This document shows positions 50,304 to 64,000 of a stretch of DNA of 64,000 bases, piece after piece. Origin of the DNA: Calvatia gigantea (lineage: Eukaryota > Basidiomycota > Agaricomycetes > Agaricales > Lycoperdaceae); contig JACAAK010000009.1 in NCBI GenBank assembly GCA_025093985.1, positions 3,348,001 to 3,412,000 of the forward strand. Direction: 5' to 3'. How positions within the stretch are numbered: position 1 is the first letter of the stretch; the number at the start of each line of letters is the position of its first letter. The notes under the pieces were generated by a model that was not told where the DNA came from, searched no databases, and saw only the letters and a program-made list of their open reading frames with translations. Made by a program: the position numbers and the translations under genes.

Positions 50304-51087
50304 TTCCTACGTATTAGTAGTAGTCCAAGATTGCGTACACGGATGTACTTACCGCAAAGTGTTCCATTTGGCACACCTGCAAGGAAAACGTTGGTGATCC
50401 AATGCGATGTTGTTGGTCTTTCGCTATCCCAACCGGGGCCATCACCTCCCCGGTGTAAAACTACTGGTAAAAGCGTTCACTCAAGAACACGTTCGTCAAG
50501 CCACAGTACGAACTCTCAAACGACACTGACTACTGGCTTCATTCCTTCATCCTGCCTATTACCTGCCACACCAGGTTAAGCATTAGGTCTAGACTCCCTT
50601 CATATTGGTTGTGTGAACGTCAATATAGGTTGCCCAACGTATCTATCCCGCTCACACGCCCATAGAAAGCGCACTTTACCTAAGATGAGTCCAACCTGAC
50701 ATGCTTGGCGTAACGCACACTGCGTAGTGGATCACTACTCGCATCGCATACTCGAAGGCATGCCAGGTATCAAAGGAGTTGGAGCCAGAAGGCCCCGTCG
50801 GGTCGGGAGATTTTTGATTAGACCGGAGTCACCCAGAATCGTAACTGGGATTTCGTTTCGACCGAGAATTCAGAAGAAGTTTTCGCCAGGCGTCTAAAAG
50901 AACGCCCGCGGACAAGAGGTACTAGTGAAGCTCAAGCTTCAGCTAACCAACCATCCAAGGTAGTCTGACGCAAGTCAGTACGTTGATCTCTATTGAGATC
51001 TGGAAAACTACCTAGATCACGTCTTTCTAAGACAGCCCGCCGCCAAGAAGCAGCAAGATCTATAAGTTGTTTCGTTCGTCGCTTACT

Positions 51088-52640
51088 GACGATCAACCGC
51101 CGATCAAGAAGTCCAAGTTTATCCAAGCGTAGATACTCACCTCTGCCCACCAGAGACTTAGCAACTACACTAGAGTGAGCGTCAACCCGCCAAAGCGGAT
51201 CTTCACCACCCCAATGCAATCGCCCTCCCCGACGAGTTTCAGTAAGTTCCGGCTTGGTTGCGAGTAGGGGTTATCTAGGTGAGTTGGACATTAGGGGTCA
51301 TAGGGGTCAAAAATTATTGGAAGGGGATAGGCAGGGGATGAGTAGGGGTGGGCAGGGGATGGGCTGGAGATGAGTAGGGGTGGGCAGGGGATGGGCAGGG
51401 AATGAGTAGGGGTGGGCAGGAAATGGGCAGGGAATGGGCTGGGGACAGCTGGGGACAGGCTGGGGGTGGGCAGGGAATGGGCATGGAATGGACAGGGAAT
51501 GGACAGGGAATGGGCAGGAGACAGCTGGGGACAGGCTGGGGGTGGGCAGGGAATGGGCAGGAAATGGACAGGGAATGGACAGGGAATGGGCAGGGGACAG
51601 CTGGGGACAGGCTGGAGGTGGGCAGGCTCATAGGGGATGAGTAAGAATAAGGAGGGGATGAGGAGGGGAATGAGGAGGAATGGGTAGAGAACAGACTGGG
51701 GATGGGGGAATGGACTGGGGGTGATATTGGAGTTGTGCACACCCATTTGTCCAAGACAAATGAATGTCCATCACACCCATTTGTCCAAGACAAATGAATG
51801 TCCATCACACCTCAGCCAACTGTGGGAAAATCAGAGTGGTGCACACCAATTCATCCAAGATGAATTGGTGTGCATGAGTCCTCAGAACATTAAATATAGA
51901 ATGATACTGGAATAACTCCACCAAAAATGAGCAGATCTACTCATACTTTTTTTCATTTTGTTCGGATTGACAGTGGCTTTTCAGCGACTCCAGATACAGG
52001 CCAATATGTTCATTCATTGCAGCACTATTTCAAAAACTCGCATTTATGGTGTTATTGGTATAACTCACTGGATACTAAAGCGATCATTTCGGTCTAAATT
52101 CCGTTGAATAGTACTCATTGAGCTAATTCCAACAAGCCCAAATACATTATATTTCATTCAGGCTCTGTATTTCTACTGTATTCATAGTATTTACCCCAAA
52201 ATAGACACATAATTCTATAACAATACAACGGCTGCAGATAATTACTCGGTCCCTTTTGTAGATTACTCACATTTACAGGAATCCCCTGATGAGATACTGG
52301 GGATGTTGCTTCAATAACTACTTGGAGTGCTGTGGAGCCACCTTGTTGTTTAGAAATGCTAAAATATTATGGCAGAGAGTAGGCGAATTTCTACGGTCTC
52401 AATACCGTTGGAAAGAGCTCTCTGAGGCGGTTCTAACGAGGTATAATACATGGTGATTGGATTGCAGGGGCTACCAGTACTGGCTCAGCAATTGTTGACA
52501 TTGACTGATTGAGTGTGGGAAAAATTGGGATAGTGCAGACCATTCGTCTTGGACAAATGTGTGTGCATTGGTACCTCAATTCATTATGGGAATACTGGAG
52601 TGGCTCACACACATTCGTCTTGGATGAATGGATGTGTACC
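51088..52640. repeat. Segmental duplication, copy 1
   Basis: Element 3' fragment, G-rich minisatellite and one satellite unit, repeated in the same orientation and order at 54898-56377. Copy 2 lacks many 1-4 base stretches in its first 450 bp. Confidence 0.8.
51299..51720 (+). repeat. G-rich minisatellite
   Basis: Irregular tandem array of GGGGATGGGCA, GGGAATGGACA and GGGGACAGCTG-like units. Nearly every unit has runs of three or four G, so G-quadruplexes on this strand are plausible. The proline-rich translations of the other strand are repeat artefacts. Confidence 0.75.
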
Positions 52641-53850
52641 AAGTCCAGTTCACAGTGGGAATATTCGACTGGTGCACACCCGTTCGTCTTGGACGAATGG
52701 ATGTGCATCAAACCTCACTGGACTGTGGGAAAATTAGAGTGGTGAACACATCAATTCGTCTTGGACGAATCTGTGTGCATGAGTCTCCAGAACATGGAAT
52801 ATAGAATGATAATGGGATAACTCCACCAAAAGTGAGCGGATCCACTCGGTCTTTCTTTTAACTTGTTCGGATTTGCAGCGGCTTTTTATAAACCCCAGAT
52901 ACAGGCTGATATGTTCATTTACTGCGGCACCATTCTAAAAACACATATTTATAATGATATTGCTATAACTCACTGGACACCAAAGCAATCATTTCGGTCT
53001 GAACGCCATTGGATAGTACTCATTGAGCATATTCCAACGAGCCTAAATACATTATATTCCGTTGAGGTGCTGTATTTCTACTGTATTCACAGTATTTTTT
53101 TCCAAATACACAAATAATTGTATGACAATACAGTGGACAGAGATAATAGCTCTGTCTCTTTTGTAGAAATATGATATTAACAGGGGGCTTTTAATGAGAT
53201 ACTGGAGATGTTGCTCCAAGGATTATATATGGTATGCTGTGAGGCCATGTTTTTATTAAGAGGAATGCTGGAATATTATTGCAGGGAGTAGGCGGATTTC
53301 TACGGTCCTGGTACCGTTAGAAAGAGCTCATTGAGGCGATCACAACGAGGTATAATACATCATGATTGGGCAGCAGTGGCTGCCTGTACGAGCCTTACTA
53401 CTACTGACAGTGACTGATTGAGTGTGGGAATGTTTGAGTGGTGCGGCATCATTTGTCTTGGACGAATGTGTGTGCATTGGTACCTCCATTTATTATGGAA
53501 ATATTGGAGTGGTGCACACTCATTCATCTTGGACGAATGGGTATGTACCAAGTCCAGTTCACAGTGGGAATATTGGACTGGTGCACACCCATTTGTCCAA
53601 GACGAATGTCTGCGCATCAGACCTCAGCTAACTGTGGGAAAATTAGAGTGGTGCACACACCAATTCGTCCAAGACAAATCTGTGTGCATGAATCTCCAGA
53701 ACACTAATGAAAGAATGATAATGAAATAACTTCACAGAAACTCAACCAATTTGCTCAGTCTTTTTTTCAAAATGATTGGATTTTCAGCCGCTTTTCAACG
53801 CGTCTAAATACGGGCCGATACGTGCAGTAGCTGTGCTGCTACTTAAGTAC
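51729..53850. repeat. ~900-bp satellite units with palindrome clusters (left block)
   Basis: Tandem units of roughly 900 bp. Each has an AT-rich body and a cluster of up to four palindromes spaced about 73 bp apart with core ATTCGTC-N3-GACGAAT (clusters near 51745-51880, 52520-52790, 53430-53690). The bodies also share shorter internal motifs (ACGGTCT..TACCGTTGGA..AGAGCTCA..TGAGGC), showing older internal duplication. No coding capacity. Confidence 0.75.
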
Positions 53851-53904
53851 TCAGGGGTTAGGAGAGGGAGATCCTAAAAACCGTTGAGTTGTCGATGGAG
53901 AGAC

Positions 53905-53969
53905 AGTGCAACAGGCTGGGGAGCTACCCCAGCCACCTGTTTCGTCTTATGACAGACTCATCAGGCGCT
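53905..53969 (-). ncRNA. Hammerhead motif 2 (stem I damaged)
   Basis: Core and stems II/III as in motif 1, but the stem I 3' strand is GCACT instead of GCGCT, leaving a C-A mismatch in a 5-bp stem. Confidence 0.55.
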
Positions 53970-54323
53970 CTGATTATCCATCAGTACCTACCAGACCAAT
54001 AGAACGCGATCGTTCGCGTTATTATTGGGGACGAGCGTAAATAGCTCGATCCATGGAACAGCTGATAAATGTCAGCGAGCGCTTAAAAAGCGCCCATAAA
54101 ATCAAGCGCTTGTGGGCGCTTAATTTACCGTCAGGAAAGAAAAGTAAAGGAAAAACTTGTACTTAAGCGCCCGCATAGCGCCCAAATGCGGGGCGCCCAT
54201 TAAGCGCCCACGCACTTAAATACGAACATTCTTGAATAATAAATGAACGTACCAAGTACCTACCGATGTCATCAGCTTGACAACTGAGGGCGGGGTACAT
54301 ACCATGGCAGGTTATTTACGCAA

Positions 54324-54597
54324 CAGTCCAGCTCGGACAGTCCCTTAGTCCATCTATCAGCCTGCGCATCACAAGACAAGGCCGGTTCGAAGAGAAGGTG
54401 ATTCCTAAAAACCGTTGAGTTGTCCGATGGAAGAGACAGCGCAACAGGCTGGGGAGCTACCAGTCCAGCTCGGACAGTCCCTTAGTCCATCTATCAGCCT
54501 GCGCATCACAAGACAAGGCCGGTTCGAAGAGAAGGTGATTCCTAAAAACCGTTGAGTTGTCCGATGGAAGAGACAGCGCAACAGGCTGGGGAGCTAC
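54324..54597. repeat. Perfect 137-bp tandem duplication
   Basis: 54324-54460 and 54461-54597 are identical head-to-tail copies spanning the end of one terminal repeat and the start of the next; the junction cuts the hammerhead stem III loop. Confidence 0.85.
54438..54460 (-). ncRNA. Hammerhead fragment 3
   Basis: Only stem I 3' strand and half of stem III remain; interrupted by the tandem duplication. Non-functional. Confidence 0.5.
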
Positions 54598-54639
54598 CCC
54601 AGCCACCTGTTTCGTTTTATGACAGACTCATCAGGCGCT
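54575..54639 (-). ncRNA. Hammerhead motif 4 (stem II mismatch)
   Basis: As motif 1, but stem II reads GTCT..AAAC, a C-A mismatch in the 4-bp stem. Core CTGATGA and GAAA intact. Confidence 0.6.
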
Positions 54640-54897
54640 CTGATTATCCATCAGTACCTACCAAACCAATAGAACGCGTACGATCGCGCTATATCTGGGG
54701 ATGAGTATAATTAACTCAATCCATGGAACAGTTGACAAATGTCAACGAGCACTAATGAAGCGCCCAAAAATTCAAGCGCTTGTGGGCGCTTAAATTATCA
54801 TCAGGAAAAACAAAAGTAAGGAAAACTTATACTTAAGCGCCCGCGTAGCGCCCAAGTGCGGGGCGCCCATTAAGCGCCCACGCACTTAAATACGAAC

Positions 54898-56377
54898 ACG
54901 CCGATCAAGAAGTCCAAGTTTATCCAAGCGTAGATACTCACCTCTGCCCACCAGAGACTTAGCAACTACACTAGATGAGCGTCAACCCGCCAAAGCGGAT
55001 CTTCACCACCCCAATGCAATCGCCCTCCCCGACGAGTTTCAGTAAGTTCCGGCTTGGTTGCGAGTAGGTTATCTAGGTCAGTTGGCATTAGGGGTCATAG
55101 GGGTCAAAAATTATTGGAAGGGGATAGGCAGGGGATGTAGGGTGGCAGGGGTGGGCTGGAGATGAGTAGGGGTGGGCAGGGGATGGGCGGAATGAGTAGG
55201 GGAGGGCAGGAAAGGGCAGGGAATGGGCTGGGCAGCTGGGGACAGGCTGGGGGTGGCGGGAATGGGCATGGAATGCAGGGAATGGAAGGGAATGGGCAGG
55301 AGACAGCTGGGGCAGGCTGGGGGTGGGCAGGGAATGGGCAGGAAATGAAGGGAATGGACAGGGAATGGGCAGGGGACAGCTGGGGACAGGCTGGGGGTGG
55401 GCAGGCTCATAGGGGATGAGTAAGAATAAGGAGGGGATGAGGAGGGGGATGAGGAGGAATGGGTAGAGAACAGACTGGGGATGGGGGAATGGACTGGGGG
55501 TGATATTGGAGTTGTGCACACCCATTTGTCCAAGACAAATGGATGTCCATCACACCTCAGCCAACTGTGGGAAAATCAGAGTGGTGCACACCAATTCATC
55601 CAAGATGAATTGGTGTGCATGAGTCCTCAGAACATTAAATATAGAATGATACTGGAATAACTCCACCAAAAATTAGCAGATCTACTCATACTTTTTTTTA
55701 TTTTGTTCGGATTGACAGTGGCTTTTCAGCGACTCCAGATACAGGCCAATATGTTCATTCATTGCAGCACTATTTCAAAAACTCGCATTTATGGTGTTAT
55801 TGGTATAACTCACTGGATACTAAAGCGATCATTTCGGTCTAAATTCCGTTGAATAGTACTCATTGAGCTAATTCCAACAAGCCCAAATACATTATATTTC
55901 ATTCAGGCTCTGTATTTCTACTGTATTCATAGTATTTACCCCAAAATAGACACATAATTCTATAACAATACAACGGCTGCAGATAATTACTCGGTCCCTT
56001 TTGTAGCTTAATTAAATTTACAGGCAGCCTCCAATGAGATACTGGGGATGTTGCTTCAATAACTACCTGGAGTGCTGTGGAGCCACCTTGTTATTAAAGA
56101 AATGCTAAAATATTATGGCAGAGAGTAGGCGAATTTCTACGGTCTCAATACCGTTGGAAAGAGCTCTCTGAGGCGGTTCTAACGAGGTATAATACATGGT
56201 GATTGGATTGCAGGGGCTACCAGTACTGGCTCAGCAATTGTTGACATTGACTGATTGAGTGTGGGAAAAATTGGGATAGTGCAGACCATTCGTCTTGGAC
56301 AAATGTGTGTGCATTGGTACCTCAATTCATTATGGGAATACTGGAGTGGCTCACACACATTCGTCTTGGATGAATGG
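54898..56377. repeat. Segmental duplication, copy 2
   Basis: Second copy of 51088-52640: an element ORF scrap (54898-55064), G-rich minisatellite (about 55095-55500) and a satellite unit cut at 56377 by the full-length Penelope-like element. Confidence 0.8.
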
Positions 56378-56743
56378 AGTAATTAACTCGATCCATGGAA
56401 CAGTTGACAAATGTCAACGAGCGCTAAAATAGCGCCCAAAACCCTAGCGCTTATGGGCGCTTAAGTTATCGTCAGGAAATGTAAAAGTAAGGAAAACTTG
56501 TACTTAAGCGCCCGCGTAGCGCCCAAATGCGGGGCGCCCATTAAGCGCCCACGCACTTAAATATGAACATTCTCGAAATAATAAAATGAACATACCAAGT
56601 ACCTAACGATGTCATCAGCTTGACAACTGAGGGCGGGGTACATACCGTGGCAGGTTATTTACACAACAGTCCAGCTCAGACAATCCCTTAGTCCATCTAT
56701 CAGCCTGCGCATCACGAGACAAGGCCGGTTCCACTCACCATTG

Positions 56744-56768
56744 TTAGGGGAGGTTAGGGGTTAGGGGG
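56744..56768 (+). repeat. Telomere-like TTAGGGG run in the full-length element
   Basis: Same imperfect TTAGGGG units as at 50279-50303, between the terminal repeat and the 3' untranslated region. Confidence 0.5.
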
Positions 56769-57396
56769 TTCCTACGTATTAGTAGTAGTCCAAGATTGCG
56801 TACACGGATGTACTTACCGCAAAGTGTTCCATTTGGCACACCTGCAAGGAAAACGTTGGTGATCCAATGCGATGTTGTTGGTCGTTCGCTATCCCGACCG
56901 GGGCCATCACCTCCCCGGCGTATAACTACTGGTAAAAGCGTTCACTTAAGAACACGTTCGTCAAGCCACAGTACGAACTCTCAAACGACACTGACTACTG
57001 GCTTCATTCCTTCATCCTGCCTATTACCTGCCACACCAGGTTAAGCATTAGGTCTAGACTCCCTTCATATTGGTTGTGTGAACATCAATATAGGTTGCCC
57101 AACGTATCTATCCCGCTCACGCGCCCATAGAAAGCGCACTTTACCTAAGATGAGTCCAACCTGACATGCTTGGCGTAACGCACACTGCGTAGTGGATCAC
57201 TACTCGCATCGCATACTCGAAGGCATGCCAGGTATCAAAGGAGTTGGAGCCAGAAGGCCCCGTCGGGTCGGGAGATTTTTGATTAGACCGAAGTCACCCA
57301 GAATCGTAACTGGGATTTCGTTTCGACCGAGAATTCAGAAGAAGTTTTCGCCAGGCATCCAAAAGAACGCCCGCGGACAAGAGGTACTAGTGAAGC

Positions 57397-60300
57397 TCAA
57401 GCTTCAGCTAACCAACCATCCAAGGTAGTCTGACGCAAGTCAGTACGTTGATCTCTATTGAGATCTGGAAAACTACCTAGATCACGTCTTTCTAAGACAG
57501 CCCGCCGCCAAGAAGCAGCGAGATCTATAAGTTGTTTCGTTCGTCGCTTACTGACGATCAACCGCCGATCAAGAAGTCCAAGTTTATCCAAGCGTAGATA
57601 CTCACCTCTGCCCACCAGAGACTTAGCAACTACACTAGAATGAGCGTCAACCCGCCATAGCGGATCTTCACCACCCCAATGCAATCGCCCTCCCCGACGA
57701 GTTTCAGTAAGTTCCGGCTTGGTTGCGAGTATTTCCGCGGAGAGTTCTGATTTCTCCGGGGTATTACCGAAGGATAATGTGCGTAGTGCAACTATCCATC
57801 CAGACTTCAGGCTGTCTGCCAACGTTTGAACGTTAAATAAATCCCATGACAAGTTATATTCTGATTTAAGGACAAGGACGTCCGCTGGTTCAGGTCGACT
57901 CTCTCTAAGCCGATTATCCCAACGTTCCTTATAGTTTCTCCTTAACCAAGAAGCAATTAACTTAGGAGGGTAGCCTCTCGCAATATAGATATCCGCAATT
58001 TCTCTACATGCTTCTACGTAGTAATCATACTTCGAAGAAAGAGTGGCTAGCCTACTCAGTTCACTCGTGAATGTGCCGCGCTTGACATATTCCGGGTGAG
58101 AGCTAATCCATGGTAAACGTTCGAAATGGTTAAGCGGTTTCCTGTACGGTTTGTGACGAAACTCACCGTCCTCAAAAAAGAGGGTCAAATCCAGGAAGTT
58201 GACGTGATTATCATCCGCATCCCATTCAATTTCACAGTTCTCGAATTTGAGAGGACTTACCCATCCAAGGGCCTCTCCGTATGACCTAGCGTACACTAAG
58301 GCCAAACAATCATCGATATAGCGTCCATAATACGCTACGCGAGCGGTTGAACCCATACGATAGGCTTCCTCATGGTGTACTCCATAAAGATTAGCTAAAT
58401 CCGGTGAGCATGCAACGCCCATCGCTAATCCGTGATTCTGCCTATAATAATCCCCGTCGAACTGGAATATAAGATCGTCGTTGGCCGCTTTGAGGCACTC
58501 CCTCATTAACCAAGCTCTGTTGGTAGATTCCTCAACGCTTAAATCCTCTTGCATCGATAACCATTTAAGGTATCTGTCATTAACAATCTCTAGACAGCGA
58601 TCCTTATCGATATTAGGATAGAATGCTACGACGTCACCTGAGACGAAGTATAAGCGATGCAGCGACCCATTTATTAATTTAAATTGGGGTAACGACAATT
58701 TAGCAAGCTTAAGTACCAAATCCTTTGTTCCATGAATTATGAATGGACTCTCGGCAATTAATGGTTTAAGATGCTTGGAGACATACTTCCCGGCTGGACC
58801 TTGTATAACAGAGTGGCAAGGGATAATCGGCCTTGCTTTTACCGGTTGTTTATGGATTTTAGGAATCACATAAAAGTTTGGGAGTCGGTCAGCATACTCC
58901 GCCCAAGTATCTTCCTTGTGACGGTAATTTGTAGCCATGACCTCCGGTAAAAAGAAACTCCTAAAGAAGTCCGGAAGTTGCGGGTGAACGTCATGTTCAG
59001 CACAGAATTTTGCAATTCTCTCCATGTGCGAAAGCTTCGACCATATATACCAATGGACCGATCCATACTCGCCAGTAGTATGGTCCATATGATTAGGATC
59101 AGGATGGAACGTTTTCGGGTCAAATTTAAGTTTTGTATAGTCAGGAGTATCCCGACTACCCATAGCGTTAAGAAGCTTAAGCGCGCTTTCTATGAACCAG
59201 GATCGCGGAGCAACTGCGCAACCTAAGTTTTTGTCAGTGACCATCAGTAGGAGCTCGTGAGTTACTAGATAGTCATGGAGTTTGGAGATCGGCGGTAAAA
59301 GCGATCTAGGTGTGCGACCGCCAATCTGGTCATCGTTGGGCAATTGCGAGACTACTTTATTAATCGTCCGCGTCCCTTCTTCGATGCCAAACTCAAATGC
59401 TCTGTCTAATGGACTCGCCCGCTTACGTGAAGCTTTAGACGGAGTCGCATAGTCTGGATCATAGTCGTTGATTAATTCACCATTGTCATGATCATCCATA
59501 ATTCGGAAGTGAACTGACCATCGGAGACGATCAACGAAATCGTCCCAAGCATCTAAGATTAATTGCTTAGAATACTTAGTGGGGAGCATGTACTTAAGTC
59601 CCGCACTCAGGTGAATCGCTAACTCACGCGGTACATCGCAATCAATCATATGTATAGTGGACCTATAGCGCATACTTTCTAAAACTACAGAAGGTATTCT
59701 AGCCCATACAAATTGCTGCGCGTGGCGAAGGGAAACTGTTAGTAGCCAACTAGGATAAGTGGAAGAGATATCCCACCTGAAAGGCGCGCGATGCACGCGT
59801 ATACCAAGGATGCCGCTATCATCTATTACGACCTCCCGCCTTTCCCCTTCTTGTTCGGCTTGGACTTGCCCTGATTGCGTAGCCGAACCTGTCTGCCACC
59901 CTTGGTCCCCCGCGCGCGTTGGACTTGACCACCGGAGGATTTCCCCCCAGTGGCCCCGTCTTTCGCGCGTTGACCTCCTCCCTTGCCTGGCTTGGGATTC
60001 TGGTGGAAAAGGAAGGGAAAATTCATCAGAGCTTAACAGATCAGCATAAGCGTCGATGGACGAACGACGCACCTGTTTACCCTTTCCCTTTCCTTTATCG
60101 AGCGCTTTAGCTACTTCCGCCCTCACCATCTCAGCGACGGATTTGGAGGATGACGCTTCTTGAACGTCGTCAATTGCTGCTCGCTGTAGCCGTTGTTTAT
60201 CAGCTTTGACCTTGCTTTCCTTGTTGAGCGCGTCTTCTACGATGCCGATCGCGCGACCCCAAATTACTGGGATGTCGTCAAGGAGGTCACGGAATGCTGC

Positions 60301-61200
60301 GACCACGGCTGGGTCATCCGTCCTGCCCTTCAAAACAGGCCGCCCATGTACATCTGCATGCTTATGATCCCACACAAGGACCTTAGCTTCTTTATGCAGA
60401 CGTTCAAAAGTAGCGACAAGGTCGGCGTATAGGCGATCGCCGGTCGCAGTGAAGTGTGCGGTGGTCATAGCGGGCGCAGCTGCAGCCCCGGTGCTAGACC
60501 CTTCACCACGGTCCTCGTCATCTACTTCCATAGCCCCACCCTCGGGGTCTATGAGCAACGTGAGTGCGCGTAGCTCACTGGCCTCGGTTTCCTTGAGCTC
60601 TATGACCTTATTCAAGGCCTCGAGTTCATAGGTTTTATGGAGGTCGTTCAAGGAGGTGCGAACCTCCTCGGCATGCGCGACCATGAACGTTTTCACGAAT
60701 TGTGGTTGCGCTCGTTTGGTCTGAAGAGAGGGGGGGATTTTTCCGTCATCTCGTGAGCTTTGCAAGCTCTTGAGTTGGCGCTCAACGGCAGCCAGGGATT
60801 TTCGGGCGCGCATCGCAGCCTCGAGGTGCTCCTTGAAGACACCCCTGTAATCCCCCGGAAATATACATCCCAGCAGATCGAAGAGGTTTTCGCAGCCCAT
60901 AATGGGCGCGCGCCTCGCGATCGCTTGTGCCTGCTGGATCTTTTGAAGGTTCTGAGGCGTATTCGCCTTTCCCTCCAGAACCGTCTCCAAGGCGCCCAAT
61001 GTTTGTGCTATTGCTATGGCAGGGGCAGCCGCAGGACTTTGCTCCCGTACGTGGAGCCCTCGAGTCGCGCCTCTCGCTAGTTGAGAGATCGGAAGGGTGA
61101 AGGGACGAGGGACGGGAGGGCGAGAACCAGCAGAGCCACGGCCACGGCCGCGACCACGTTTCGAGTTGCCAGAGGATGACGCTGAAGCACGAGGGGGCAT
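57397..61200 (-). CDS. Penelope-like reverse transcriptase polyprotein, 1267 aa, no GIY-YIG domain seen
   Basis: Intact single-exon ORF. Residues 1-450: basic and low-complexity (RGRGRGRG near the start, Lys/Gly-rich near 390), probably nucleic-acid binding. The RT lies at about 770-1075: PKIHKQPVKARPII (hallmark of Penelope-like RTs), VSGDVVAFYPNID (motif A), HGLAMGVACSPDLANLYG (motif B), catalytic YIDD at about 961-964 in YYGRYIDDCLALVYA, VNFLDLTLFF, and HKPYRKPLNHFERLPW followed by a SSHPEYVKRG block. The C-terminal 190 residues are basic and show no GIY-YIG endonuclease motif. RTs of this group lacking endonuclease (Athena, Coprina) are known at telomeres of rotifers and fungi and prime from chromosome ends; the telomere-like runs fit this. 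Assignment is from motif order; a retron-like or other RT clade is less likely. No frame lesion, so possibly active. Confidence 0.75.
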   Translation of the reverse strand: MPPRASASSSGNSKRGRGRGRGSAGSRPPVPRPFTLPISQLARGATRGLHVREQSPAAAPAIAIAQTLGALETVLEGKANTPQNLQKIQQAQAIARRAPIMGCENLFDLLGCIFPGDYRGVFKEHLEAAMRARKSLAAVERQLKSLQSSRDDGKIPPSLQTKRAQPQFVKTFMVAHAEEVRTSLNDLHKTYELEALNKVIELKETEASELRALTLLIDPEGGAMEVDDEDRGEGSSTGAAAAPAMTTAHFTATGDRLYADLVATFERLHKEAKVLVWDHKHADVHGRPVLKGRTDDPAVVAAFRDLLDDIPVIWGRAIGIVEDALNKESKVKADKQRLQRAAIDDVQEASSSKSVAEMVRAEVAKALDKGKGKGKQVRRSSIDAYADLLSSDEFSLPFPPESQARQGRRSTRERRGHWGEILRWSSPTRAGDQGWQTGSATQSGQVQAEQEGERREVVIDDSGILGIRVHRAPFRWDISSTYPSWLLTVSLRHAQQFVWARIPSVVLESMRYRSTIHMIDCDVPRELAIHLSAGLKYMLPTKYSKQLILDAWDDFVDRLRWSVHFRIMDDHDNGELINDYDPDYATPSKASRKRASPLDRAFEFGIEEGTRTINKVVSQLPNDDQIGGRTPRSLLPPISKLHDYLVTHELLLMVTDKNLGCAVAPRSWFIESALKLLNAMGSRDTPDYTKLKFDPKTFHPDPNHMDHTTGEYGSVHWYIWSKLSHMERIAKFCAEHDVHPQLPDFFRSFFLPEVMATNYRHKEDTWAEYADRLPNFYVIPKIHKQPVKARPIIPCHSVIQGPAGKYVSKHLKPLIAESPFIIHGTKDLVLKLAKLSLPQFKLINGSLHRLYFVSGDVVAFYPNIDKDRCLEIVNDRYLKWLSMQEDLSVEESTNRAWLMRECLKAANDDLIFQFDGDYYRQNHGLAMGVACSPDLANLYGVHHEEAYRMGSTARVAYYGRYIDDCLALVYARSYGEALGWVSPLKFENCEIEWDADDNHVNFLDLTLFFEDGEFRHKPYRKPLNHFERLPWISSHPEYVKRGTFTSELSRLATLSSKYDYYVEACREIADIYIARGYPPKLIASWLRRNYKERWDNRLRESRPEPADVLVLKSEYNLSWDLFNVQTLADSLKSGWIVALRTLSFGNTPEKSELSAEILATKPELTETRRGGRLHWGGEDPLWRVDAHSSVVAKSLVGRGEYLRLDKLGLLDRRLIVSKRRTKQLIDLAASWRRAVLERRDLGSFPDLNRDQRTDLRQTTLDGWLAEA

Positions 61201-61305
61201 CGCGAATAGATGTCGAAAAATGGGAGGCGGAGAGAGGAGCGACGGTTTTGCGAAGTGGGGAGAAGGTGATACCTAAAAACCGTTGAGTTGTCCGATGGAG
61301 GAGAC

Positions 61306-61370
61306 AGCGCAACAGGTTGGGGAGCTACCCCAACCACCTGTTTCGTCTTATGACAGACTCATCAGGCGCT
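61306..61370 (-). ncRNA. Hammerhead ribozyme motif 5 (complete, compensatory stem III pair)
   Basis: Stem I AGCGC/GCGCT, core CTGATGA, stem II GTCT/AGAC, core GAAA, cleavage GTT all intact, located about 105 bp upstream of the element ORF start. Stem III has GGTTGGGG/CCCCAACC where other copies have GGCTGGGG/CCCCAGCC: a C-G pair replaced by U-A. Confidence 0.85.
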
Positions 61371-61803
61371 CTGATTATCCATCAGTACCTACCAAACCAA
61401 TGAAACGCGTACGATCGCGCTATACTTGGGGATGAGTATAATTAACTCGATCCATGGAACAGTTGACAAATGTCAACGAGCGCTAAAATAGCGCCCAAAA
61501 ACCCAGCGCTTATGGGCGCTTAAGTTATCGTCAGGAAATGTAAAAGTAAGGAAAAACTTGTACTTAAGCGCCCGCGTAGCGCCCAAATGCGGGGCGCCCA
61601 TTAAGCGCCCACGCACTTAAATATGAACATTCTCGAAATAATAAAATGAACATACCAAGTACCTAACGATGTCATCAGCTTGACAACTGAGGGCGGGGTA
61701 CATACCGTGGCAGGTTATTTACACAACAGTCCAGCTCAGACAATCCCATTGTTAGGGGAGAAGGTGATACCTAAAAACCGTTGAGTTGTCCGATGGAAGA
61801 GAC

Positions 61804-61864
61804 AGCGCAACAGGCTGGGGAGCTACCCCAGCCACCTGTTTTGTCTTATGACAGACTCATCAGG
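61804..61864 (-). ncRNA. Hammerhead fragment 6 (dead)
   Basis: The GAAA core reads AAAA and the stem I 5' strand is lost at the satellite junction (61864/61865). Confidence 0.55.
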
Positions 61865-64000
61865 TGATGTTGCTCCAATAGTTACATGGCGTACTATGGA
61901 GCCACTTTGTTATTAGAGAAATGCTGGAATATTATGCCAGAGAATAGGCGGATTTCTACGGTATTTGTACCGTTGGAAAGAGCTCATTGAGGCGATTCCA
62001 ACGAGGTACAATACATGGAAATTGGATTGCAGGGGCTACCAGTACTGGCTCAACAGCACTGACAGCAACTGTTGAGTGTGGGAATATTGGAGTGGTCCAC
62101 ACCATTTGTCTTGGACGAATGTGTGTGCACTGGTACCTCAATTTATTATGCAAATACTGGAGTGGTGCACACCCATTCATCCAAGATGAATGGGTGTGTA
62201 CCAAGTCCAGTTCACAGTGGCAATATTGGACTGGTGCACGCCCATTCGTCCAAGACGAATGGATGTGCATTAGACCCCACTGGACTGTGGGAAAATTAGA
62301 GTGGTGCACACATCAATTCGTCTTGGACGAATTGGTGTGCATGAGTCCTCAGAGCATTAAATATTGAATGGTACTGGAATAACTCCACCAAAAATGAGCG
62401 GATCCACTCGATCTTTTTTTTAACCTGTCCGGATTTGCAGCCGCTTTCTATCGACATTGGATACGGGCTGATACGTTCATTTACTGCAGCGCTATTTTAA
62501 AAACACATGTTTCTCATGTTATTGCTATAACTCACCGGACACTGAAGCAATCATCTAGGTGTAGATGCCATTAGATAGTACCCACTGAGCGGATTCCAAC
62601 GAGCCTAAATACGTTATATTCCGATGAGGTACTGTATTTCTACTGTATTCACCAGTATTTTCCTCCAAATACACAAATAATTCTATAACAATACAGTGGA
62701 CAGAGATAATAGCTCAGTCTCTTTTGTAGTAATATGATATTTAACAGGCAGCTTTTAATGAGATACTGGGGGTATTACTCCAAAGACTATATGGTATGCT
62801 GTGAGGCCATTATCTTATTAGAGGAATGCTGGAATATTATTGCAGGGAGTAGGCGGATTTTTACGGTCATGGCACTGTTAGAGAGAGCTCATCGAGGTGA
62901 TTACAACGATGCATAATACATCATGATTGGGCAGCAGTGGCCCTCTGTATGAGCTGTACAACTACTGACAGTGAATGATTGAGCGTGGGAATATTGGAGT
63001 GGTCCACACCATTCGTCCAAGACGGATGTGTGTGCATTGGTACCTCCATTTATTAAAATATTGGAGTGGTGGGCACTCATTCTTCTTGGACAAATGTATG
63101 TACCAAGTCCAGTTTACAGTGGGAATATTGAACTGGTGCACCACCATTCGTTCAAGGCGAATCAGTGGGCATCAGACCTCAGCTAACTACTGTGGGAATA
63201 TTTGACTGGTGCACACATCAATTCGTCTTGGACGAATCCACATGCATATCTCCAGAACACTAATTCTAGAATGATAATGAAATAACCTCACGAGAACTGG
63301 ACCGATTGACTTGGTCTTTTTTTTGAACTTTTCGGATTCTTAGCCAGTTTCCAACGCACCAATATACGGGCCGATACGCTCAGTATTTGTAGTGCTATGT
63401 CAAAAACCCGCATTTTTAATGATCATCCTATAATTCAATGAGTATTGAGCCAATCACTACAGTCTGAAGTGCGTTGGATAGTACTCATTGAGTGGATTTC
63501 AACGAGTATAAATTAATTATATTCCAATCAGGCATTGAGCTTCTATTTAATTCCTAGTATTTCTATGAAATGGACAAAGTATTCTATAGCAATTCAATGG
63601 CTGCAGCTATTGACTCAGTCTTTTTTGTGGATTGACGGGAAATGCAGTCGCATTTTAACGGAGTATTGAGGATGTTACTCTGATGGCTATATGTCATATT
63701 ATGGAGCTGGCCTTTATCAGAGATGTTAAATTATTATGCCAACAAGTGGGTAGATTACTACGGTCTTGGTATCGTTGGACAGAGCTCACTGAGGCAATTC
63801 TAACGAGGTATAATACATGATGATTGGATTGCAGTGGCACCCAGTACTGGCTCAGCAATTACTGACAGTGACTAATTGAGTGTGGGAATATTGGAGTGGT
63901 CCACACCATTCGTCCAAGACGAATGTGTGTGCATTGGTACCTCAATTCATTATGGAAATACTGGAGTGGTTCACACACATTCATCTTGGATGAATGAATG
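61865..64000. repeat. ~900-bp satellite units with palindrome clusters (right block, runs off window)
   Basis: More than two units, with clusters near 62095-62345, 63000-63240 and from 63895. The best palindrome (62168-62198) has two perfect 14-bp arms around CAA. Others: 62242-62262 (loop CAA) and 62314-62334 (loop TTG). The array continues past the end of the window. Confidence 0.75.

Follow-up and report, generated by a model that had tools for sequence, protein, structure and literature searches.

In-place inversion of a three-base palindrome centre in a subtelomeric satellite of Calvatia gigantea

RESULTS

Palindrome centres in the satellite change to their reverse complement

We analyzed a 64,000-nucleotide stretch of the Calvatia gigantea genome (assembly GCA_025093985.1, 45.95 Mb in 77 contigs), hereafter called the window, which corresponds to positions 3348001 to 3412000 of contig C77 (JACAAK010000009.1). 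Satellite units of about 900 bp in this window and at other contig ends carry up to four short palindromes. The three-base centre of these palindromes was found to change in place from CAA to TTG or the reverse, that is, to its exact reverse complement. The change occurred in several lineages and in near-identical surroundings, and it outnumbered all other changes of the same bases. Local spacer inversion, through template switching during replication or through hairpin processing, is the probable cause suggested by these sequence comparisons.

A full unit contains four palindromes (P1 to P4) of the form ATTYRTC-NNN-GAYRAAT with a spacing of about 70 bp. The window contains 25 of them between positions 51745 and 63995, including four with one or two changes from this form; 12 have CAA and 13 have TTG as the centre. 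The original prediction had described such units and both centres, and its coordinates were right within a few bases. The first palindrome has TTG at 52542, 53451, and 62104 and CAA at 63011 and 63908, and the third has TTG at 52682 and CAA at 53591 and 62244. Throughout the genome, the pattern ATTYRTCNNNGAYRAAT was found at 188 sites, compared with 4 sites for the reversed control pattern. Of these sites, 147 were in the first 20 fetched stretches, 33 more were among the matches listed, and 8 were unplaced. Two lone sites inside contigs (C2:807040 and C12:1578141) had unrelated flanks and look like chance matches. Assignment by flank similarity, with up to three mismatches in the palindrome, placed 160 palindromes in the classes P1 to P4, and removal of two (an overlapping chance frame with centre ATG) left 158 copies for the pair counts and trees. 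The centre was CAA or TTG in 149 of the 158 oriented copies and CAG or CTG in none. The classes differed in composition: P1 had 17 TTG, 14 CAA, and 5 other centres; P2 had 27 TTG and 4 CAA; P3 had 30 CAA, 12 TTG, and 1 other; and P4 had 23 TTG, 22 CAA, and 3 TTA.

Pairs of copies of the same class were then compared over masked flanks of 120 bp per side, with at least 120 comparable columns required. Among pairs with less than 1% flank divergence, 6 of 85 had reverse-complemented centres and none had another centre change. Below 2%, the flipped pairs were 9 of 126, representing four separate events; again no other centre change was seen, and the remaining 117 pairs kept their state. Between 2 and 6%, 18 of 102 pairs were flipped and 10 were changed otherwise, giving 27 flipped pairs of 228 below 6% overall. 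These 27 pairs represent eight separate contrasts, as counted by hand from the pairwise flank divergence. The flipped fraction was 31 of 66 pairs at 6 to 8% and 36 to 44% in each of the higher bins.

As a control, base triplets in palindrome-masked flanks were examined. None of 24,295 triplets had changed at all three bases in pairs below 2%. Below 6%, 21 of 43,606 had changed at all three bases, one of them to the reverse complement, and below 12% the numbers were 220 of 96,977 and seven, respectively. Unmasked flanks were unusable as a control since they include neighboring palindromes; all 14 fully changed triplets below 2% were reverse complements there, presumably the centres of those neighbors. 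The occurrence of exact reverse complements in close pairs, against none in the masked flank triplets, excludes chance as the origin of the flipped centres.

The cleanest case is C45:62640 (TTG), a palindrome with perfect 16-bp arms, compared with C45:10234 (CAA). Over 317 compared positions, the only differences between the two are the three centre bases and a single base 105 positions from the palindrome start; nothing else differs within 95 bp of the centre. The window copy at 55594, a homologue of C45:62640, departs from it at five of 317 compared bases, three of them the centre. Window position 51849 has the same palindrome as 55594, and its flanks are 5.7% diverged from C45:62640. In another recent case, the window copy at 53591 and its homologue C34:17509 (ATTTGTC-TTG-GACGAAT) have flanks 1.0% apart and share the same asymmetric arms. 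Because these arms are unchanged while the centre is turned, a single inversion could span at most 9 bp, and inversion of the whole palindrome is contradicted in at least this recent case.

In close pairs, the exact reverse-complement spacer thus stood between unchanged arms. Among all 142 flipped pairs below 12%, the arms were identical in 21 (18 symmetric and 3 asymmetric), swapped in 6, and otherwise different in 115. The six pairs with swapped arms and flipped centres were each 9.8 to 11.8% apart. Swapped arms with an unflipped centre were seen in 3 of 346 same-centre pairs. One such pair, window 53522 and C34:17578, is only 1.5% apart, and its swap could reflect either two independent CpG changes or two inversions.

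Centre states are partly inherited and recurrently flipped

Quick maximum-likelihood trees were built from the masked flanks of 154 of the 158 copies. Of these, 145 were labelled CAA or TTG, and nine with another centre were left unlabelled; four copies with a weak flank score, including window 51745 and 56359, were left off. The minimum numbers of changes between CAA and TTG were 4 for P1, 2 for P2, 8 for P3, and 7 for P4, a total of 21 that may be somewhat high, as each tree had 8 to 16 weakly supported inner branches. In 300 label shuffles, the mean numbers of changes were 10.3, 3.9, 10.6, and 14.8, respectively. For P1 and P4, the observed changes were fewer than in every shuffle, which indicates inheritance of the centre state with the units between flips. 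The numbers for P2 and P3 fell inside the shuffled range, and there the trees give little evidence of inheritance. The centre state is therefore partly inherited and homoplastic.

The original prediction had proposed repeated, independent inversion in place, and the flipped close pairs, the eight contrasts below 6%, and the 21 tree changes agree with it. By its own test, perfect tracking of the unit phylogeny by the centre state would have refuted this, and such tracking was not seen.

On the same trees, the 21 flips compared with six other changes of the centre triplet. Flips amounted to 5.25 per palindrome position, compared with 1.48 changes per flank column (614 over 416 columns). The centre therefore flips at a few times the substitution rate of a single flank site, without a difference of orders of magnitude. 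Related to tree length, there were 4 flips on 2.56 for P1, 2 on 0.76 for P2, 8 on 3.08 for P3, and 7 on 3.05 for P4.

Hairpin potential and a proposed route of inversion

The palindromes may be regarded as short inverted repeats with 7-bp core arms, up to 16 to 19 pairs when flanks are included, and a 3-base spacer. In the proposed process, the spacer would occasionally be inverted in place, from CAA to TTG or the reverse. A DNA polymerase at the inverted repeat would switch to the complementary template within one arm, copy the spacer off the other strand, and then switch back. Alternatively, an extruded hairpin could be opened and rejoined with the same product. The flipped state would then be inherited through unit duplication within and between chromosome ends. 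We infer polymerase template switching as the agent.

Eight single-strand DNA folds were computed for seven window palindromes, one of them on both strands. Seven folds had energies of −11.5 to −19.8 kcal/mol, and none of 200 shuffles was as good for these. The palindrome at 51849 reached −17.8 kcal/mol, and the wider hairpin at 62175, folded as DNA, had 19 predicted pairs, 14 of them perfect beside the loop, at −19.8 kcal/mol. The perfect arms were 16 and 14 bp in two of the eight contrasts and 9 bp in a third. In the copies taken as derived in the other five contrasts, they were at most 8 bp, and the range over all copies examined was 2 to 16 bp.

Arms are conserved outside CpG and decay largely independently at CpG

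The arms vary mainly at their fourth and fifth bases, which were CG, CA, or TG and never TA in 223 rows. Changes of CG to CA or TG are expected from CpG deamination on either strand. These arm variants look like CpG decay that is largely independent between the two arms. Among the 114 copies that are distinct with their flanks, both arms had the same dinucleotide in 61, compared with 47.7 in shuffles (p 0.0014), and 48 of the 61 were undecayed CG/CG. With duplicates included, matching arms were found in 91 of 158, compared with 65.6 in shuffles. When both arms had decayed, 13 distinct satellite copies matched and 11 differed (n = 24; with duplicates, 24 and 12), and in the other arrays described below, 22 matched and 17 differed, where the overall match was not significant (p 0.16). 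Arm covariation thus appears weak at most. The original prediction had used coordinated arm change as structural evidence; as stated this was rejected, since the arms mutate largely without coordination and the excess of matched arms is mostly undecayed CG/CG.

In contrast to the CpG columns (3.25 changes per column), the non-CpG arm columns had only 0.35 changes (14 over 40), about four times fewer than the flanks, in copies selected by a pattern tolerating three mismatches. In addition, 34 places with a missing neighbor palindrome were inspected by eye, and no palindrome there had been lost by point decay; the places were truncations, insertions, spacing changes, or class mislabels. The palindrome at C34:8592 and its copy at C34:4362363 were altered by arm duplication. 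Since the arms are conserved while their CpG positions are not homogenized, copying from arm to arm would not readily explain the conservation. Whatever conserves the arms would be symmetric, and the two centres are for this reason probably interchangeable.

The same palindrome occurs in other repeats

Besides the satellite, the palindrome was found in 49-bp tandem arrays at C56:28960-30314 and C26:23551-26936, in which CAA and TTG neighbors are mixed. Of three array stretches, C26:23.5-24.6k showed clumped states (p 0.02); p was 0.09 and 0.48 in the other two. A region found at C45:59237-60200 and, homologous with 78 to 88% identity, at C6:18311-19090 contains about ten scattered palindromes of this form, and their centres are mostly others (CAG, CTG, CTA, CCA, TGA, TGG, CTC, and CAA). 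A candidate CAG/CTG flip between C6:18835 (CAG) and C45:59945 (CTG) was set aside because the two centres differ by one base, so that a flip and a point mutation are indistinguishable.

The two 49-bp arrays matched each other by blastn. With palindromes masked, blastn gave no match at E 0.05 among the 900-bp satellite, the 49-bp arrays, and the C45:59k region, a comparison of low power given spacers of 32 bp. By eye, short flank words (ACC...GGTGT and AGACCTCA) recur across the repeat families, and the families may have a common origin.

The arms, slow to change yet unhomogenized, and the presence of the 17-mer in three settings with nonmatching flanks (the 900-bp satellite, the 49-bp arrays, and the C6/C45 region) led us to consider a symmetric protein-binding box. 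Tentatively, the 17-bp palindrome may be a subtelomeric box bound on its arms by a predicted homodimer that ignores the centre. Selection would keep the box across repeat families, and the unread centre would flip freely, recording hairpins or template switching at chromosome ends. The CENP-B box of alpha satellite likewise has 17 bp and is retained as the satellite around it diverges; it is not a palindrome, whereas the placed sites here are mostly subtelomeric palindromes for which protein binding is a prediction.

Genomic setting of the satellite

The ~900-bp units lie near contig ends on C34 and C45 (both ends), C7, C67, C74, and C77; further units are on C56 at 31.6 to 32.6 kb and in one more piece of C45 at 62 kb. 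Both C34 and C7 terminate in runs of the TTAGGG type, and C45 has a CCCCTAA run 193 bases into its sequence. Given this location and these telomere-type runs, the satellite is subtelomeric, insofar as contig ends represent chromosome ends. The satellite array is reversed in orientation on C34 between 11.3k and 13.1k and on C7 between 424.9k and 426.7k, at corresponding units, and the two ends seem to share a rearranged block. The features of the window are listed in Table 1.

TABLE 1 Satellite stretches, palindromes, and the reverse-transcriptase element in the window
Feature	Position	Strand	Palindrome starts and centres	Remarks
Satellite stretch 1	51729..53810	+		End approximate, by eye
Stretch 1, partial unit			51745 CAA, 51779 CAA, 51849 CAA	
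Stretch 1, full unit			52542 TTG, 52613 TTG, 52682 TTG, 52754 TTG	
Stretch 1, third unit			53451 TTG, 53522 TTG, 53591 CAA, 53663 CAA	
P3 palindrome	53591..53607	+	ATTTGTC-CAA-GACGAAT	Recent flip
Satellite stretch 2	55500..56377	+	55524 CAA, 55594 CAA, 56288 TTG, 56359 TTG	Truncated at both sides; ends approximate
P4 palindrome	55594..55610	+	ATTCATC-CAA-GATGAAT	Perfect 16-bp arms, left TGCACACCA, right TGGTGTGCA
Reverse-transcriptase element	57397..61200	-		Open frame of 1267 aa; multicopy; context only, separate from the flip
Satellite stretch 3	61865..64000	+	62104 TTG, 62175 CAA, 62244 CAA, 62316 TTG	Start approximate; continues beyond window end
Stretch 3, further palindromes			63011 CAA, 63079 TTG, 63146 CAA, 63221 TTG, 63908 CAA, 63979 TTG	
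P2 palindrome	62175..62191	+	ATTCATC-CAA-GATGAAT	Homologue C34:15082 has TTG; 3.4% flank divergence

G-rich degenerate 11-bp tandem repeats (AGGGGATGGGC-like) adjoin the satellite at 51322-51680 and 55140-55500, and where that partial unit recurs, similar G-rich sequence takes the place of P2 next to several of its other copies. Several contig ends carry the reverse-transcriptase element, which interrupts the satellite. Genome-wide, the frame of the element gave 39 matches, and for at least five of these the start of a contig is no more than about 700 bases away. Fragments of the element are found at about 50935-51270 (minus strand) and elsewhere in the genome. Named relatives of the frame are from Agaricus bisporus and Leucoagaricus. 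The frame itself had no Pfam match, two relatives matched RVT_1 below the cut-off, and a PDB sequence search with the frame returned none. We take the element to resemble the telomere-associated, endonuclease-less Penelope-like elements (Coprina). Elsewhere in the window, NPHP3_N was matched by two open reading frames, of which one also matches NACHT, and DAK2 was matched by another.

DISCUSSION

Several observations weigh against local spacer inversion, whether by template switching or through hairpin processing. Many arms are mismatched at CpG, though template switching should tend to equalize them, and classes with longer hairpins do not show visibly more flips. The asymmetric 52542 copy folds poorly (−6.3 kcal/mol, with 13 of 200 shuffles as good), and the 53591 palindrome has only 3 bp of perfect arm beside the loop, followed by a T-G pair. 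In the yeast study, spacer inversion was seen only with arms longer than 9 bp (PMC8604942). The ten pairs below 6% divergence with other kinds of centre difference also count on this side. The flips are read from assembled copies, and conversion from other units could account for several of them. The limited homogenization of the arms is not decisive, because homogenized arms went with only 1 of 10 spacer inversions in yeast (PMC8604942).

Gene conversion would explain the pattern if an ancient inversion or an independent origin had produced both states and short tracts had then moved CAA and TTG between units. The satellite repeats are multicopy, and donors were searched in the eight contrasts as the longest match by a flipped-centre copy other than the close sibling of the copy itself. 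The donor match was 35 bp for C77:3412048, 58 bp for C34:15153, and 45 bp for C34:17437; it was 52 or 25 bp for C34:17509 or window 53591, depending on which copy is derived, and for C34:13212 and C7:426810 it was 77 bp if CAA is derived and 17 bp if TTG is derived. Conversion could have operated in five of the eight contrasts. However, the best matches were only 19 bp for C45:62640, 21 bp for window 62175, and 19 bp for C56:32562, so that a conversion tract would have to fit within about one palindrome, and the lack of any other difference within 95 bp of the centre between C45:62640 and C45:10234 also argues against it. We regard conversion as the main rival, though as an unlikely account of the flips. 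An assembly or polishing artefact, in which near-identical repeat copies were mixed in the consensus, is far less probable still. The most recent flips do rest on single copies in near-identical repeats, as read from the assembly; however, several copies, located on different contigs, share other flips, mixed states also occur in the 49-bp arrays on C56 and C26, and the genome must contain both states anyway.

Point mutation in steps, by way of a more perfect ancestor, needs only one transition each for CAG to CAA and CTG to TTG, with CAG and CTG one base apart. Both CAG and CTG occur among the C6 and C45:59k palindromes, and parts of the 49-bp arrays have them too; this route could account for the first split into CAA and TTG. 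For the recent flips it is nearly refuted, given the absence of CAG and CTG from the 158 satellite copies and the nine full flips without any other change among the 126 closest pairs; as a general account, it is scarcely credible. A dedicated site-specific recombinase or invertase that flips the centre is just as hard to credit. In outline, recombinase sites have dyad-symmetric arms around an asymmetric core, as here, and a search of two families, PF00589 and PF00239, gave above-cut-off matches in a tyrosine-recombinase-like frame (C38:1452-1960) and a resolvase-like frame (C42:24016-24417), the only ones in the genome. The contigs C38 and C42 are possibly contaminants, or the frames may belong to mobile elements. 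Known enzymes of these classes, however, invert DNA between two sites and not the core of one site; here no segment between two inverted sites was inverted, and the change lies inside one palindrome. In addition, 117 of 126 pairs below 2% keep their state, and no palindrome or satellite match was found on C38 or C42 among the best candidates and the matches of one sub-pattern. The original prediction had named both a hairpin-based process and a recombinase; the former provides the best explanation, and the latter gained no support from the two families searched. A dimeric binding protein, which it also suggested, may act here, given the conserved non-CpG arm bases.

Local spacer inversion has well-described parallels. 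In wild strains of Saccharomyces cerevisiae, template switching inverts short spacers recurrently and reversibly between arms that stay unchanged in 9 of 10 genes, as reported by Abraham and Hazkani-Covo 2021 (PMC8604942). The exact reverse-complement spacer, the unchanged arms, and the recurrence and reversibility within a species are shared with the satellite, and several of the yeast spacers are likewise 2 to 3 bp long (ttc/gaa). In yeast, the inverted spacers belong to protein-coding genes and their arms exceed 9 bp (PMC8604942), whereas the palindromes here are in a multicopy subtelomeric satellite with perfect arms of 2 to 16 bp. Unlike what template switching would lead one to expect, the satellite shows little arm homogenization.

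For rRNA genes, Monttinen and Loytynoja 2022 (PMC8794818) likewise inferred loop inversions consistent with template switching; multicopy DNA and an inverted loop are common to these genes and the satellite. The rRNA stem is a functional RNA, whereas an Rfam search of the window gave nothing at the gathering threshold. Small inversions associated with hairpins in chloroplast genomes likewise have a stem-loop whose loop is inverted repeatedly and independently across lineages, and microinversion hotspots in bird nuclear genomes were not associated with stem-loops, both as stated in PMC3123225. The chloroplast inversions are in organelle genomes, whereas the repeats here are nuclear. Loops of chloroplast small inversions are usually longer. 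A literature search for fungal subtelomeric palindromic satellites returned nothing on the subject by title, and a search on spacer inversion in satellites with inverted repeats gave no paper.

The satellite is a new instance, in subtelomeric repeats, of a published mutational process. With well over a hundred related hairpins, a two-state centre, and a clock in the flanks, it offers a natural measure of spacer inversion against substitution. The flip counts caution against the use of such centres as phylogenetic characters. In addition, the counts point to a conserved box at the chromosome ends that may have a binding protein.

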